Below, one piece after another: positions 1,595 through 22,260 of a DNA stretch of 35,546 nt. A program made the translations under genes and the position numbers. The notes under the pieces were generated by a model. That model was not told the origin of the DNA and ran no database searches. It saw only the letters and a list, made by a program, of their open reading frames with translations. The stretch comes from Candidatus Omnitrophota bacterium. GTDB lineage: Bacteria > Omnitrophota > Gorgyraeia > B26-G9. The stretch is taken from assembly GCA_018895275.1 (NCBI GenBank), contig JAHIOQ010000108.1, forward strand, positions 1 through 35,546, in the 5' to 3' direction. Each line of letters starts with the position of its first letter. Positions within the stretch are counted from its first letter, which is position 1.

Positions 1595-1736
1595 TAGGCT
1601 TGTATAGATAACTTCCTAATTTCCGGCATCTAACTATATATTCGGCATATTTTTTGCAATAAGATTCTCCGTGAACCAATCTGCAACTCTTTTATTTTCA
1701 ATACATTACATTAATAAAAAAAAACGGCTATTACCA

Positions 1737-1765
1737 TTGAAATACAGTGATTTTTATGGTATACT
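1737..1765 (+). promoter_or_regulatory. Putative sigma70-type promoter (TTGAAA-17 nt-TATACT) for giant gene A
   Basis: TTGAAA 1737-1742, 17-nt spacer, TATACT 1760-1765; followed by RBS 'aggag' and ATG at 1842. Confidence 0.6.
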
Positions 1766-1841
1766 TTCTCAGTTTTATTTTTCTTCTTTTACAACTTTAA
1801 ATGAGATAACCGGTTATGTTAATAATCAGAGGAGTAGGAAA

Positions 1842-4800
1842 ATGTTTTTAAAAAAAAGGAATAGGTATTGCTTAATAATAAGAATTATAAATTTTTTCAT
1901 CTTGCAGTGTTTTATAATTATAAATGTTCAAGGTGTTTTTGCTCAGGAGCAGCTCTTTTCTTTGAGACGCCGGCAGACAGATACCCTTTCTCCGTATTTA
2001 AATATTAAAGCCATAACCGTTCAATCAATCTTTTCCGATAAAAGTCAACAGCCGTTACCGCCGTTACCTGTTGAAAAATCTAAGGTTCGGTTAATGCCGC
2101 TATCATTGCGTGATACCGGAAGTATTGCGGAATTATTAGAAGGCAGCGAGGTATTCTTGAATGACTTATGGGCCAGAAAGACATTAGGCGTGCCGACAGC
2201 AATCAGCAGTCTTCGCAGTGAAGGTGATAATTTTGATGAATGGGATTGGGGCAGGGGTGACATGGGCGAATCCGGGCGCCGGCATATTTCATGGCTGGCC
2301 AGGAATGGTTTTTCCAGATGGATGCGTTTGCCTAACCGTAAAACTAACGCCTTATTCGGAGACCCCAGCCCTTATGCGGCGCGCAGCGCATTTGCCGGGG
2401 AAGATTCGGATATTGCCGTGCCGGAGGTGGAGGAATTTATTAAATCAGAACAAGCGCAAGCCTGGTATCGAGATAATAAACAACGGATTATGGATTTACA
2501 TAATGCAAAAAGAGTAGACGCGCTGGAAGTGGCCAGATTAAAAAATGAGGCTTTGTGGCTGGCGATGCAATATTTTAAAGAAAATCACTTAAATAAAAAT
2601 ACGCCGCGCGATAAAGCTTTTGATGAGTTTTTGCGCGACAATGACTGGGTAGATGATTACGCGCAATATATGGCGATAAGTGAATATTACTGGGATAAAA
2701 AAAAGGGTGTTTTTGATGAGATAAATAAAACTCTTTGGAGAGAGCTTGACGGAAAATTAAAAGGCCTGTTAAATGTTCTGCACCATGCAATGAAAATAGA
2801 GGGAACAAAAGATGTCGGGCAGTTATATGTACTGGTAGACGATTTTTTTAGGCGCTATTATGAGCAGAATATTGCCGGAAAAGAAACTAATAGGTTCCGG
2901 CTGAATATCTATGAGTTTTTGTTAAATAAAATAAAAGGGGGAGTTTTTAAAGCGCCTTTGAAGGGCAATATTGAATCTTTCATTAAAGCAGATTTTAATG
3001 GATGCCGAAATATGCTTTTTGATGGGTATGAGCGTTCAAAAAAAGCGTTCAATGATATGGAAGAAGCAATCGGGCAGGAATGTATGGCGGACTGGAGGAA
3101 TTGGGACAATGAAAAATTGGTGGAGCGCGATTCTGAAACTTTAGCCGGATACGGTTCGCTTTTGGAAGATAAGATATTGTTTCATAAGTACGCGCAGTTT
3201 GTCTTCAATGCGCAGGAAAAACAAATGAAAAAATTTGCCAACGACCATGGCATTGCAATTGAAGGGGATATTCCCTTTTATGTATCAACTATAAGCTGTG
3301 AAACGTGGGTGTATAAAAACAGGATTTTCCGGCTGGACTCGGAAAACCGGTATCAGCAGATGTTTGATACCGGCGCGCCGCCGGACCAGTATGACCGCGA
3401 ATACGGGCAGAACTGGGGCGGGACGCCTTATTATATAAATGAGGAGTTTAAGAAATTTTTCTATGAACGGACAAAACATGAATTAAAGAATGCGGACGGT
3501 ATACGTATCGATCATTTCCGGGCGCTTAATGATTTCTGGGTTATTCCCCATGGCAAGCTTGGCCGGGACGGTAGGTTCGAAGACGGGCCGAAGGATGAAT
3601 TATTACAGCCGTTGCTTAATCTGGCGTTGGGCCGGCTTAAACGTTTTTTTGCCGAAGACCTGGGCTCTGACCTGGAAGGGGTATGGGAGCTGATGCGCGA
3701 TAACGAGATCAAGGGGTTTCGTGTCGCGATATTTGGCCATGGGGATGATGATGATGTCTTGCACCGGAAATATAGCGGCCAGATCGCTTTTTCCGGAACA
3801 CATGATACCATGACCTGGATAGGCGCATGGGATAAGTGGGATGTTCCCAAACGAAAAATACTTCTGAACAGGTTTTTTTATGAAGATATCCCGGGGATTA
3901 TGGAGAGGTTGACGAAGGAACAGCAAAAAAACTTCTTTAAATTTCTTGATTATTTTGTAAAGCGATTAAAGAAAGACACGGCGGTTATAGAACAACCGGC
4001 GGATTTTCAATCCGTGCAGGACAATTTGTTTACCCCGTTAGAGAAAGCCCCCGACGAAGTCGGTGGTGGGAGAAATATAGACGCTGACGGTGGGTTAATG
4101 CCACCGTTAGCGGAAACCGTTAGGGAACGAAGTTCTCTAACGGGGTTTACTGCGGACGGCAGTTTTGAGGAAAAATTGCAGTTGATCCGCAAGATCTCGG
4201 AGGTTTTGGTTGATTTTGAGGAATTGCCCTTTGGCGTACAGGCCGCTATATTCGGAATCCTGGCTTTTTCCGAGGCGGATACGGTGTTTCTGCCGATGCA
4301 GGATATTTTCCGGCAGGGGGAAAAATATCGCATAAATGTCCCGGGTAAGCCCGGTGATTGGGGATACCGCCATCCGTTCACAGGTCAGGAATTGAATAAG
4401 GAAGAAATTAAAGAAATAAAAGAAGCCAATAAACTAATGCGGATGCTTGCTGAAACTTCAGGCCGGGATACCCGCAGGCCTTTATACAAAGAAGGCGAGG
4501 GCGCGCATATCCTGGGAGTTTCTCCGGGGGTTAACGCAAAGAAGATGTGCAAACAGGGAGGGGAATTTATTATCTGGGCGGCAGTACAGGGAGATAAACC
4601 GCAGAAAGTTACTCTGCTGACAAATATGCCGGAACACAAAGGCGCATATCCTATAGAACAGGCAGTTAAAATGGAGTTGGTAAAACAACTGTCTTCCGGA
4701 ACGTATCTTTACGGGGTAAGAATAAGAGCAACCCAGGCAGGGAAATGGGGGGTTGCGGTTGAGGCGGATAATGTAAGAGCCGGGGATGTTAAGGAAAATA

Positions 4801-6935
4801 CAAGTCTGGTTGTAACTGCACAGGAGGAAATAGAATTTCTGTCTGAAGAACAAATAAACGCGGCGCGTATTGCCGCAGGTATTTCAGCGGAAAAACTCCA
4901 ACAGATTTTTGCCCGGTTAATGCCGGAGACAGCCGCAGAACTTGAAGAGGTTTTAGGATATTATCAGCTTGATAGCGAAGTTGTTGATGAGGGGAAAATT
5001 AATCACACGAGGGGCATTGTCACGGATTTAGTGTATGGGAATGTATACCTTCTGCGTGAAAAATTGCTTAAGGCGGATGCCCGGCAGTTAAATAATGAAG
5101 TTCATCCCAGGTTAACGGATTCTGCTGAACGTGAATATATGAGGTATAATTGGTATTCTCCGGCAGTATCGAATAAATTAGTGCAGGATTTAATTAATAT
5201 TTCTGTTTTGCCCGGGGATCCGCAGCTTGTTATCGAACATCTGATTAAGATTTTTAATGAACGCAGAAACAGCCGGACAATAACTCAGGAAGCATTAAGA
5301 GCGATAGATAAATTAATCGCGAACGCCGCCGGGCTTTCCCGTGATGTTGTATTCAGAAAAGGGAAATTCTTCCTTTTGAACGAATTTAAGGATCCGGGCT
5401 CCAACCGGAAAATTTTGTCTTTTGCCCGCTATATGGGAAAAGGGAGAAAGGCGATTGTAATCAGTAATTGCGGTGATTCCCGTACGCACGGAACGCTACG
5501 GCTGAACCGCTATGATTTTGATAAGACATTCGGAATTTCGCGTATGCCGGGCAATTACTACGCGCTAATAGACAGAATTACCGGTGAGGTCTATCTGCGT
5601 GAAGGTAAGGAATTATTGGATAACGGGTTGTATTTTGAGCTTGCCGGCTACAGTTCCCATGTGTTTATGGTAAAGAACTTGCAGGATAATAACTGGGTTT
5701 TGGAAGCGATGCGCGACTGTTCTCAGGGAAAGGCATTGGGATTGGAACATGTTATTATGCTTTTAAATAATTTCGGGCTTACCCTGGATTTCCCCTGTAT
5801 CGGAAAAGCGGCTCAGGCCTTGAGCCTGCAGGGCCTTTTAAACAACATTACTGCCGCAGAACTGAAGCAGGCTTTTGAAAGTAATCCGGATATTGAGATA
5901 ATCGAATTTGAGACAAGCTTAGATGCGAATAGCACGAATAGCAGGCTGATAGCCGGGTTCAGGGAAAAAAACAAAGATAATAAAAAGGTTCGGGCTTTAT
6001 GCCTGGGCCTGGATTTTTTTAATCAGAGAGGAATGTTGGATAATATAAAGCTTGTCTCTAATTTTAACCGGGATAAAACATCGGTTGATGTCGGCAGATA
6101 CTATGGCCGAAGAGGAGATACCGGTTATATATATGTAAACTTATCAGAGCTGGCCATGGATTTAAACGAAGGCCCTAGAAGTGAAAGTGTTTATGCGGGT
6201 ATAATCGGTGAATGGATAGAACAAAGTGTTGAAAGATCTTTTTCCTGGGGTGGTTTGGGAGATGATAAAATGCGGCAGGCTTTTGAGGCGTTTTTAGCGC
6301 TTTGGGCGGAAGACAGATTAGACATGCCGAAATTAATAAGCAGTGAACATGAAGGAATAAAGCAGATTTTGGCAGAGATCGAAAATGATGTTGAGCCAAT
6401 AGTACAAGTTCTATGGGGGTCGCGTTTTGATTCTATTGAAAAAAAGGAGAATGAGTTTATTTTTTCGTATTTAAGAAGAATGCAGATGGATTTGAGTTTT
6501 GAAAATTTTTTTTATAATAAAACCAATTTAAACACAATAAAGAACTTTGCTTATTTTTTACCGTATTATTTGGCTAATTCCGAACAGCCGGATAATATCC
6601 GCGATATTTTGGTTGAAGGATTTTCCGAAGGAAAAGGCTCCTATTACGAGAAATATTTTCTTGATAAGTTTGTGTACGGGGCGCTGGTTTTAAGGGACAG
6701 TAAAATAGATGAGATTTTTATTGATTTACTGGAAAATCCTCCGCCGGATTTGGATTTTTATTTCCAGGCATTTGTGATAAAAGCAATGCACGGCCTAAAG
6801 CGTTTTGATTTAAAAGTGGACGGAATTTCCGTTGAGCGTCTCGGGGCGATTCTGAAATCCGGTAAAGAGATTCAAGCGCTTCATGAGGCGGTAAGCACGG
6901 TCCAGCGGTATGAGGCGCTTGAACAGGCGATATAA
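1842..6935 (+). CDS. Giant exported protein A: signal peptide, GH77 4-alpha-glucanotransferase domain, beta-rich and amylase-C-like regions, unknown C-terminus
   Basis: ATG at 1842 preceded by 'aggagtagg' gives signal peptide 'MFLKKRNRYCLIIRIINFFILQCFIIINVQGVFA'; GH77-like 'GDPSPYAARSAFAGED', 'IEGDIPFYV', 'GIRIDHFRAL', 'FAEDLG', 'AFSGTHDTMTW'; ORF track start (1671, GTG) is probably overextended. Confidence 0.85.
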   Translation: MFLKKRNRYCLIIRIINFFILQCFIIINVQGVFAQEQLFSLRRRQTDTLSPYLNIKAITVQSIFSDKSQQPLPPLPVEKSKVRLMPLSLRDTGSIAELLEGSEVFLNDLWARKTLGVPTAISSLRSEGDNFDEWDWGRGDMGESGRRHISWLARNGFSRWMRLPNRKTNALFGDPSPYAARSAFAGEDSDIAVPEVEEFIKSEQAQAWYRDNKQRIMDLHNAKRVDALEVARLKNEALWLAMQYFKENHLNKNTPRDKAFDEFLRDNDWVDDYAQYMAISEYYWDKKKGVFDEINKTLWRELDGKLKGLLNVLHHAMKIEGTKDVGQLYVLVDDFFRRYYEQNIAGKETNRFRLNIYEFLLNKIKGGVFKAPLKGNIESFIKADFNGCRNMLFDGYERSKKAFNDMEEAIGQECMADWRNWDNEKLVERDSETLAGYGSLLEDKILFHKYAQFVFNAQEKQMKKFANDHGIAIEGDIPFYVSTISCETWVYKNRIFRLDSENRYQQMFDTGAPPDQYDREYGQNWGGTPYYINEEFKKFFYERTKHELKNADGIRIDHFRALNDFWVIPHGKLGRDGRFEDGPKDELLQPLLNLALGRLKRFFAEDLGSDLEGVWELMRDNEIKGFRVAIFGHGDDDDVLHRKYSGQIAFSGTHDTMTWIGAWDKWDVPKRKILLNRFFYEDIPGIMERLTKEQQKNFFKFLDYFVKRLKKDTAVIEQPADFQSVQDNLFTPLEKAPDEVGGGRNIDADGGLMPPLAETVRERSSLTGFTADGSFEEKLQLIRKISEVLVDFEELPFGVQAAIFGILAFSEADTVFLPMQDIFRQGEKYRINVPGKPGDWGYRHPFTGQELNKEEIKEIKEANKLMRMLAETSGRDTRRPLYKEGEGAHILGVSPGVNAKKMCKQGGEFIIWAAVQGDKPQKVTLLTNMPEHKGAYPIEQAVKMELVKQLSSGTYLYGVRIRATQAGKWGVAVEADNVRAGDVKENTSLVVTAQEEIEFLSEEQINAARIAAGISAEKLQQIFARLMPETAAELEEVLGYYQLDSEVVDEGKINHTRGIVTDLVYGNVYLLREKLLKADARQLNNEVHPRLTDSAEREYMRYNWYSPAVSNKLVQDLINISVLPGDPQLVIEHLIKIFNERRNSRTITQEALRAIDKLIANAAGLSRDVVFRKGKFFLLNEFKDPGSNRKILSFARYMGKGRKAIVISNCGDSRTHGTLRLNRYDFDKTFGISRMPGNYYALIDRITGEVYLREGKELLDNGLYFELAGYSSHVFMVKNLQDNNWVLEAMRDCSQGKALGLEHVIMLLNNFGLTLDFPCIGKAAQALSLQGLLNNITAAELKQAFESNPDIEIIEFETSLDANSTNSRLIAGFREKNKDNKKVRALCLGLDFFNQRGMLDNIKLVSNFNRDKTSVDVGRYYGRRGDTGYIYVNLSELAMDLNEGPRSESVYAGIIGEWIEQSVERSFSWGGLGDDKMRQAFEAFLALWAEDRLDMPKLISSEHEGIKQILAEIENDVEPIVQVLWGSRFDSIEKKENEFIFSYLRRMQMDLSFENFFYNKTNLNTIKNFAYFLPYYLANSEQPDNIRDILVEGFSEGKGSYYEKYFLDKFVYGALVLRDSKIDEIFIDLLENPPPDLDFYFQAFVIKAMHGLKRFDLKVDGISVERLGAILKSGKEIQALHEAVSTVQRYEALEQAI
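4028..4150. repeat. Palindromic element inserted in frame within giant gene A
   Basis: Direct repeats GTTTAC at 4028-4033 and 4145-4150 (117 nt apart); terminal inverted repeat ACCCCGTTAGAGAA (4032-4045) / TTCTCTAACGGGGT (4133-4146); internal hairpins CCGAC-gaa-GTCGG, ACGGTGG-n7-CCACCGT, CCGTTAGGGAAC-gaa-GTTCTCTAACGG. Confidence 0.75.
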
Positions 6936-6982: not shown

Positions 6983-9900
6983 ATGAAAAAAATATTTAAA
7001 ACAAGCTCAATAATCTTAATTCAAGCCTTCCTGGCAATGAATTTTGCCTGGGGGGGGGTAAATGATTTTCAGAGTGATTCAATAGTTTTCTCTCAGGATA
7101 CGCTTTCCCCGGCATTGCAGATCAACACGCCTTTACTGCGGCAGGTTATGCGGCAGGAAACTGCCTTTGATTATGCGGCAAATCTGGTCGAGATATATCA
7201 AAAAAACGCCTATAAAACGTATATCCAGATTTTTGCGCGTCCTGAGGGCTATCGCGTAGTAATAAAAGCCGAGCATGAAAGGCCGCTGACCCTGCACTGG
7301 GGGGTGAATCATTGGCAAAAACCGCCGGAGGCAATAATTCCTAACGGCAATGGTTATAGCACCTATGTTGATGAAACTACCGGAGCAACCCGCACGGAAG
7401 TCCAATCACAGGCTAAGGGCAATAATGTTTTTGTTATTGATATCCCTACGCTGCTGATTGATTCCATAGAAAACTTAAAATTTGTTTTTTTTGATGAGAA
7501 TACGGCTATTCAGGATATTGGCTTTAAGGACTATGAGGTGCCCATAAAAAATGCCCTGGATAAAACCATAGAGGAAATGGAACAGGGCAAGGGAAAAAGT
7601 GAAGAAAATAGATCAAAACTTGAGCAATTGCTTAAAAACCGGCTGACCCCGCCGCCAGGCCCAGGTGAACAGGATTTGAATGATAACGTACTTTATTCTA
7701 AAACAGGAAATAATGTTATTTCCGAGGTAATAAGGGGGGAAGGCGGCTTTAAGATAAATTTTTGGGTTATCAGCAACGATAAGCCGCAGTTATACTGGGG
7801 GATTAACGGCTGGCAGATGCCATCAAAGGATATTTTGCCTGCGGATACCCGTTTAGGGAAGAAAAATGAAGAGCCGGCAGTGTATACGGATATGGATAAA
7901 GAATCAGAAGACGGTTTGTACACGACATCAATATTTATCTCCGATGAGAAATGGCCGCATATAACGGAAATCAATTTTAATATCCATTATCCGGATAACG
8001 GGCATCGTGATACTAACGAGGATAAGCATTATGATCTTAAACTCACCGGCCCGGAGATGATCGGCTCTTTAGCAAAAAGAGTAAATAACATATATTTACC
8101 CGAGCCTCAGCGCAAAGAGACCGCCATGCTTTTAAAAAACGCGTTAACCGTTTTTGCCGAAGAAATATCTTATGAAGAGTTGTTGAAAATATTTCAAGAG
8201 GTTAAAGGCATTTCCTTTGAAGAGCAGGAGTCCTTGGGATTTATTTTGATCGCCAAGCTTCTTAACGAAGGCGCGGTTTGGGATGAGGCACAGGGGCGGA
8301 TAATTGTGGATAAAAACAAGGTTTCAACTGCCGTGGCTGAGCTCATTGACCGGCTTGACCCGCTTTGTGTGAACAAGTGTCTTTATCTTTTCGGCATGCT
8401 GGAACCATCCTGGATTTCAAGGCTTGTGCACGGCTTGGATTACAGGCAGTTGTATGAAGGCCAGCAAAGCGGCAGGATAACGGATTTAAGGCAGTTTATC
8501 CAGGATAAAATAAACGCATATGATGCTGAGGATAAGCCGGAGGTTTTGGAAGCAAAAGCTGTTAGTGGAAGCCGTTTATTTTTAAAAATGAATTTTAACG
8601 GCAATGTTATTTCAACATTTATGGGCTATGTTACGAAAGAAGACAAGTATTATTATAATGGTAAAAGAGTTGTTTTAAGGGATACCCTTGGTAATGAATT
8701 TTCAAGGCTAAATTTGCGCTTAGGCCGGCATGTGGATAAGGAAAAAATAAGAGTACTTATAGAAGACGGTCATAAGAAGGGCATAAAATTCATGGTTAAT
8801 TTTTTTGACTGGCATTCGCCTGAGGTCTTGAATAAAGATAATTATATGTATTATCATCACAAATTTCTCGGCAAAAATAAGGATGAGCTGACCATATTAT
8901 CAATTTTGGATAATTATGCGACAATCTTATCTCTTCCGGACGGCAGAAAGGTTTTGGTCATGCACCGACCGCTTAGCGCGGACCAGTTAAAGCCGAATTT
9001 AACCCTGGATAGTAGGAGCGGTAATTATTGGAAACAGAAATTTTTAGAGCATATGAGATATTTTATCGATGAGTTTGATATAGATGCCTTTCGGGTTGAC
9101 CTGCCCGGAGAACTGGAAGAAGCCGGGAACAGAGAGGTGTTTCAGTCTGCCTGTTTTGAGGCAGTGGAATATGCCGCGCGAAAAGGCAAAAAGATATTTT
9201 TTTGCCTTGAGGCATATTCAAAAAATTATTTCGGCACGGATGAATGCGCGCTGTTTAACGACTGGAATAATCATGCTGAAATAAGAAAATATAGATATAA
9301 GCCCTTCCGGCCTTATTATGATATGGTAAATAAAAGCTTGCTGACAGGCAATATCACTGAATTAAAAGCAGCCTTTGAAAGGATTGTGCGGCGTGTGGAG
9401 GAACTGGTTTCCTTATTTACTAATTTTGATGAAGAGCTGCTCAAAGACATGATTCCGGATAAAGAAGCGCGCGAAAAGCATGTCATGATGTTATATAATT
9501 TTGTGCGCGCCGGTTTTGACGCCTTGATGTATTTAAGGGATTTAGGCATAGGTGATATCGTAAGTATGGTCGGCGGAAAAAGTATAGGCTGGGGGGCTCT
9601 AGTACGTTATTTTACTCATAAGCCTGCGACTAAAAGGGAATTCCGCGCAAGAATGGAAAAATCCACCGGAGAGCTTGTGGATGAATCAGCGCTTTATCAA
9701 ATAATGAAAAACGCGGGCAGACACAGCTTTTCCCGGGTGTTTTTTAGAGGCAATAAGATTGTTTTTTACCGGCCGGGCTATGCGCCTGAGGTCTTTGATC
9801 TGGATAAGATGGTCTCTCCCATGCCGGCTATTGAGCTTTTGGATATGGAGCATTATGTTAACTTGTGGCTTGATGAACATGTGCTTTCTATCCCCAACGT

Positions 9901-22120: not shown

Positions 22121-22260
<140 letters not shown>

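Follow-up and report, generated by a model that had tools for sequence, protein, structure and literature searches.

Palindromic repeats lying in frame within coding sequences have so far been a curiosity of Rickettsia, together with scattered REP cases elsewhere. The Rickettsia palindromic elements (RPEs; Ogata et al. 2000, 2002) are palindromes of about 100–150 bp that occur in many copies, in frame in unrelated genes and also between genes, and each of them encodes a conserved peptide (reviewed in PMC10969869, PMC3733652). Among short elements without a transposase gene, the small mobile repeats (SMRs) of Haloquadratum have a mobiliser that is unknown (PMC3119063). The locus described here lies in a window of 35,546 nucleotides, meaning the whole stretch of Candidatus Omnitrophota DNA that was analysed, in which a palindrome is inserted into a GH77 4-alpha-glucanotransferase gene. 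This palindrome is one copy of a larger repeat family, which was beyond the view of the initial sequence-only reading of the window.

The anatomy of the window copy is presented in Table 1. Two occurrences of GTTTAC, 117 nt apart, had been noted from the sequence, and both were observed (4028–4033 and 4145–4150), as were a perfect 14-bp terminal inverted repeat (4032–4045 and 4133–4146, 100% complementary) and three internal hairpins, two of them with a GAA loop. The same reading had proposed a clean 6-bp target duplication. The duplication stands, but its length does not: across copies it comprises 4 bp (TTTA), and six appear to be duplicated because the element starts with C and ends with G beside this repeat. 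The element therefore covers 113 bp with 13-bp terminal repeats, and together with one TTTA it forms a unit of 117 nt, or 39 codons. As had been predicted, the frame is open through the insert, and taking out the 117 nt yields DNLFTADGSFEEK. The right terminal repeat is the 3' arm of hairpin 3, and hairpin 3 resembles a 35-bp short form of the element, based on the 35-bp copies compared. The bases following the right TTTA (4146–4149) are CT, matching the preferred target TTTACT. Furthermore, the insert has a folding energy of -61.2 kcal/mol, compared with -38.8 +/- 3.4 for shuffles (z = -6.6), and an Rfam search of the window returned tRNAs only.

The GH77 domain occupies the first half of the host ORF (Pfam PF02446). 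In the orthologue comparison named beforehand, GH77 homologues from the 11 other genomes of the family were found without the 39-residue segment wherever the region was covered. An exact empty site for the window copy was not seen among these homologues, which are 30–37% identical to the divergent window protein. The GH77 copy is an ordinary family member, and the part of the protein in which it lies is variable and has conserved blocks on either side. Elsewhere in the window, about the last 900 residues of the GH77 ORF are without any Pfam match, the next ORF (6983–12376) encodes 1797 aa, and a short tandem AGAAGACAGAAGAC repeat is present at 22121–22169.

Table 1. Features of the window copy, with positions in the window, and genes elsewhere that carry an insert.
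Feature	Position	Strand	Basis or location of insert
Host ORF, 1754 aa, GH77 4-alpha-glucanotransferase	1671–6935	+	ORF list; Pfam PF02446, E 5e-77
Left TTTA, 4-bp direct repeat	4029–4032	+	sequence; flanks of 165 copies
Palindromic mobile element, 113 bp	4033–4145	+	43 exact arms and many full genomic copies; other phyla
Left terminal inverted repeat CCCCGTTAGAGAA	4033–4045	+	100% complementary to 4133–4145; near invariant, 42 copies
Hairpin 1, GAA loop	4048–4066	+	fold; compensatory changes
Hairpin 2	4082–4112	+	fold; compensatory changes
Hairpin 3, GAA loop	4117–4143	+	sequence; 35-bp copies
Right terminal inverted repeat TTCTCTAACGGGG	4133–4145	+	complementarity; 42-sequence alignment
Right TTTA direct repeat	4146–4149	+	sequence; target profile
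RNA polymerase beta' (rpoC)			insert inside Rpb1 domain 1
DXS (dxs)			insert between domains
Peptidyl-tRNA hydrolase (Pth)			insert inside domain
CDC48-type ATPase			in-frame insert, domains recognised
MiaB-like radical-SAM protein			in-frame insert, domains recognised
Amino-acid kinase with PUA domain			in-frame insert, domains recognised
DapA (dapA)			insert after residue 2

The search for other copies, which had been suggested at the outset, identified further copies in the same genome, many of them within ORFs. In this draft genome of 2.56 Mb, 84 pieces match the element, and 43 exact matches to the 11-mer arm CTCTAACGGGG were counted, compared with 0 for the pattern read backwards. Through searches and the regions gathered from them, a set of 230 complete, non-nested copies was collected; every genome used is a draft from metagenomes. 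Among GTDB genomes, at least 116 stretches contain an exact match to the right end and its flank. The matches listed include Omnitrophota, Elusimicrobia (Elusimicrobiota), Nitrospirae (Nitrospirota) and Deltaproteobacteria/Thermodesulfobacteriota, as well as several Patescibacteria, Planctomycetota (including Scalindua) and Auribacterota. Within Omnitrophota the distribution is patchy, with the element present in 34 of 342 genomes, and a 90% identical copy was observed in a different family of the same class. Best matches between phyla are about 71–83% identical over the full length. Alignment of 42 sequences revealed a single homologous element with near-invariant ends. Compensatory changes were enriched in the internal hairpins, with 77 two-sided changed cells compared with 33 expected, a value reached in 0 of 500 shuffles.

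No copy was found in the plasmids searched, the sole phage match was a partial one of 34 nt that was judged to be chance, and two pattern matches in viral contigs contained no complete copy. Among the open-licence papers covered, no mention of the element sequence and nothing on MITEs with Omnitrophica was found, and the literature naming both prepilins and MITEs was judged by title to concern other subjects.

Variants of the element were also observed. Six loci carry versions of 138–150 bp with an extra nested CCGTTAG...CTAACGGG hairpin, which look as if they had grown through insertion or duplication of the 35-bp short form. Three others contain a different 36-bp palindrome with related ends (CCCCGTTAGATAGA) whose surroundings, AACCACAGA...CACCGGCGCTT, are repeated as well; it may be a relative or a separate short repeat. 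Additionally, copies in an Elusimicrobia bin (L112) and an Omnitrophota bin (L040) are 98% identical, which may reflect recent transfer or a binning error; this match was set aside because both bins derive from one sequencing project.

Analysis of the flanks of 165 copies revealed 92–95% agreement over TTTA and near-chance agreement further out, while agreement is raised at the two adjoining positions because the element itself starts with C and ends with G. Left and right repeats are identical in 206 copies, 192 of which have TTTA. The other 14 have non-TTTA repeats that are still identical on both sides (e.g. CTTA/CTTA), which points to a true duplication. The position after TTTA is C in about 85% and the next is T in about 65%, and the left side is without clear preference. 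Relative to the target, the orientation was the same in 86/86 clearly orientable copies, including all 41 of these that lie outside genes. The element inserts beside a short asymmetric TTTA-C(T), in one orientation, and TTTA is left on both sides. In the case of L021, L024 and L025 (contigs C3 and C143 of the same genome, G000), the copies are embedded in a longer host repeat, TTCACCAAG-YACA-CAGAGAAAT, and have TACA or CACA flanks in which the T/C difference is matched on either side.

Two frames of the consensus are free of stops, one sense (F/TPLEKA...SLTG/F) and one antisense (V/NPVREL...FSNG/V). A copy was considered genic when, after excision of the unit, an ORF of at least 130 codons spanned the joint, a definition independent of the element's own length. 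Unit length was divisible by three in 58/65 genic and 27/54 non-genic copies of at least 50 bp (p = 4e-6), and the sense frame was open and in phase in 57/72 genic and 22/75 non-genic copies of at least 90 bp (p = 1e-9). The frame is therefore preserved within genes, whereas it decays outside them. Inside genes, 69 of the 230 non-nested copies are in frame and stop-free (59 sense, 10 antisense), and 31 genic copies are not open, 17 of which lie 35 codons or fewer from the end of the gene.

A domain search of the in-frame host genes recognised domains that flank the insert on either side or enclose it (Table 1), and at the level of sequence RpoC, DXS, Pth, CDC48, DapA and other host proteins stay whole with it. 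In rpoC, two genus mates carry an 84-bp unit and a congener has a precise, intact empty site, AAATTTAGGG; a second rpoC copy was not seen in these three drafts. Beside the tolerated insertions, a 94% identical copy (G000:C75:33651-33775) in a Mut7-C-type gene has two in-frame stops and truncates the gene, with the loss of about 19 last residues, and is a putative loss-of-function insertion.

The class III signal peptide motif (type IV prepilin G/FT-LIE) holds 28 of the 69 in-frame copies, exactly at the site. The target TTTAC corresponds to the F-T codon pair of G/FTLIE. As the last three bases of the element are always GGG and the duplicated TTT follows them, G/F is rebuilt; a filled prepilin gene reads M...KGF-[TPLEK...SLT]-GFTLIE. 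In the genome of the window, 28 N_methyl genes were identified, 7 with the element or a solo right end at the motif and one further gene with a decayed copy there. Half of the in-frame copies of this genome (6/12) are located at the prepilin motif, with p ~2e-9 under the assumption of 2300 genes. One pseudopilin site is filled in this genome and in a genome of another genus, and is empty in two further members of that second genus and in other genera. We infer that the gene is GspG-like, and under the simplest reading its site was probably struck twice, independently, in two genera, at one nucleotide. Prepilin leaders are cytoplasmic, variable in length and cut off by prepilin peptidase (PMC10191384), so the insert should be discarded along with the leader; its residues appear to sit in the leader, where the peptidase could remove them. 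Decayed or solo right ends were also identified in prepilin leaders at L203 and L204 (contigs C134 and C7 of G000) and at L140, e.g. MNREQSSLTGFTLLE. At these loci the inserts appear to erode within the leader while the cleavage site persists.

These observations very probably reflect a non-autonomous mobile palindrome of fixed orientation that is coding in frame and has a prepilin hot spot. It inserts next to TTTA-C(T) in a single orientation, leaving TTTA on either side, and at its usual lengths the unit divides by three and has two frames free of stops, one sense and one antisense. Landing in a gene in one of these phases, it adds about 20–50 residues and, at the level of sequence, leaves the protein whole. 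It would survive mainly where extra residues are harmless, chiefly in prepilin leaders but also in domain linkers and at N-termini. In the prepilin case its 3' end brings a new Gly and a complete G/FTLIE is recreated, so that prepilin peptidase might then cut the entire insert off with the leader. The mover most likely acts in trans and would be either an enzyme that works on folded single-stranded DNA or a site-specific recombinase.

It is very improbable that the insert never reaches the protein, being skipped by the ribosome as a bypassing element or spliced from the mRNA as an intron. The RNA fold is very stable and, like known bypassing elements, the insert has a direct repeat at either end, but skipping would need neither a length divisible by three nor an open frame, and genic copies keep both while non-genic copies lose them. 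The prepilin hot spot could instead arise from sequence targeting alone (GG-TTTAC-YT), with no contribution from tolerance or leader removal. TTTA-C-T is preferred at non-genic targets too, and occupied prepilin sites always have the TTT codon and never TTC (8/19 compared with 0/5, p = 0.13). However, the 35.5-kb window alone has 106 TTTAC sites over its two strands, and with a target so common about 19 prepilin sites cannot by sequence alone attract half of the in-frame copies; selection or tolerance is therefore also needed, and we regard targeting alone as unlikely. A stronger version of the mobile palindrome reading, which we put forward tentatively, is that the element evolved for erasure at the protein level: its ends (F-TPLE...SLTG-F) rebuild G/FTLIE, pilin genes would be a safe haven across phyla, and an orientation-specific mover would also duplicate the 4-bp target.

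For the mover itself, no mobilising enzyme was found among the genes between arms, the genes near copies, the IS1380-type genes or the Y1 loci. Three candidates for a long arm-bounded element (L057, L123 and L139) were considered and rejected, as they hold pilin and metabolic genes and no transposase. Unpaired right ends had no adjoining enzyme, several being decayed copies in pilin leaders, and no gene family recurring near copies was recognisable as a transposase, the largest clusters being pilins and pilus-assembly genes. An ordinary MITE mobilised by a DDE transposase (e.g. an IS1380/piggyBac-like one, which has CCC ends and leaves a T-rich duplication of 4 bp), moving by cut-and-paste with a staggered 4-bp target, would agree with the perfect 13-bp terminal inverted repeats, the 4-bp duplication and the concerted non-TTTA repeats of 14 copies. 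Symmetric ends, however, predict either orientation, and the absolute orientation observed argues against such an element, as do the IS1380-type genes of 20 genomes, which are without element-type ends, and the failure to find a long arm-bounded element; an ordinary DDE origin seems improbable. Under an HUH/Y1 mechanism (IS200/IS605 or RAYT-like), a single-stranded hairpin would be joined 3' of TTTA(C), with the right TTTA carried and not duplicated. This is a possibility that we entertain with reserve. The orientation is fixed beside a 4–6-base target, as is known for IS605-derived PATEs (PMC3119063), the hairpins are maintained through compensatory changes, and Y1 genes are present in 18 of 20 element-bearing genomes. 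Against it, element arms were found at 0 of the 37 Y1 loci examined, two element-bearing Patescibacteria bins, drafts that may be incomplete, gave no Y1 match, concerted repeats such as CTTA/CTTA are unexpected if the right repeat is carried, and IS605-type elements are without terminal inverted repeats (PMC3119063). A site-specific recombinase acting on a circle with the junction TTCTCTAACGGGG-TTTA-CCCCGTTAGAGAA, which has the look of a dif-type core, and integrating it at TTTA through spacer identity would, with no need of a dedicated transposase, account for the fixed orientation, the direct repeats, the concerted variants and the occurrence across phyla. The targets, however, are without arms on the outside and no circle was seen, and this route appears doubtful. 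HUH/Y1 transposition and spacer-identity recombination each account for part of the anatomy. Separately, Y1 transposase genes broken at contig ends were observed at L240 (end of C130) and L241 (start of C55) of G000; these may be copies of a single repeated element at which the assembly breaks.

The family extends in-frame coding palindromes to several phyla beyond that of Rickettsia, and even an RNA polymerase gene provides a clean empty site. How proteins accommodate 20–50 new residues can be followed here in a natural experiment that recurs. It also explains the odd ...SLTGFTLIE pilin leaders of these bacteria. If inserts in prepilin leaders are indeed cut away after translation, these leaders would be a safe haven, and selfish DNA would have such a haven in pilin genes across phyla. 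Since no standard mobiliser fits the combination of a fixed orientation and a duplicated target, a search for the enzyme would be worthwhile.

Compared with known systems, the element resembles MITEs in being short, lacking a transposase gene and having terminal inverted repeats, a short direct repeat as target-site duplication and empty sites, as in rpoC. It differs from them in its absolute orientation (86/86) and in that no parent IS was found, with no transposase-coding element sharing its ends among the fetched loci, IS1380-type genes and Y1 genes. PATEs and other IS200/IS605 derivatives share the hairpins, the orientation-specific insertion by a 4–6-base target and the lack of a transposase gene, whereas PATEs have neither perfect terminal inverted repeats nor concerted direct repeats (PMC3119063), and no Y1 element related to the present one was found. 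REP/BIME sequences (RAYT) are likewise repeated palindromes with a tetranucleotide by the stem, a few of them within genes (PMC3733652); here, however, the tag is TTTA rather than GTAG or CGTC, the insert is long and coding, and the Y1 genes are not repeat-flanked. SMRs are similar in size (~110 bp), in terminal inverted repeats unlike those of any known transposon and in a strong target preference, but are without target duplication and target other mobile elements rather than coding sequence (PMC3119063). PATEs and SMRs are the nearest transposase-free elements in anatomy, differing in ends or duplications (PMC3119063).

The resemblance to RPEs proposed in the sequence-only reading was borne out for behaviour. 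The element is a palindrome of the 100–150-bp class, repeated in the genome and located in frame in protein genes that are unrelated to one another and whose products remain whole. An RPE-like behaviour is supported, and membership of the RPEs is not claimed, as the hosts belong to other phyla, the ends are CCCCGTTAGAGAA and the likeness is one of behaviour. Unlike RPEs, the element combines clean empty sites with an orientation-fixed TTTA target and a hot spot at the prepilin cleavage motif, the latter two being, to our knowledge, outside the known features of RPEs.
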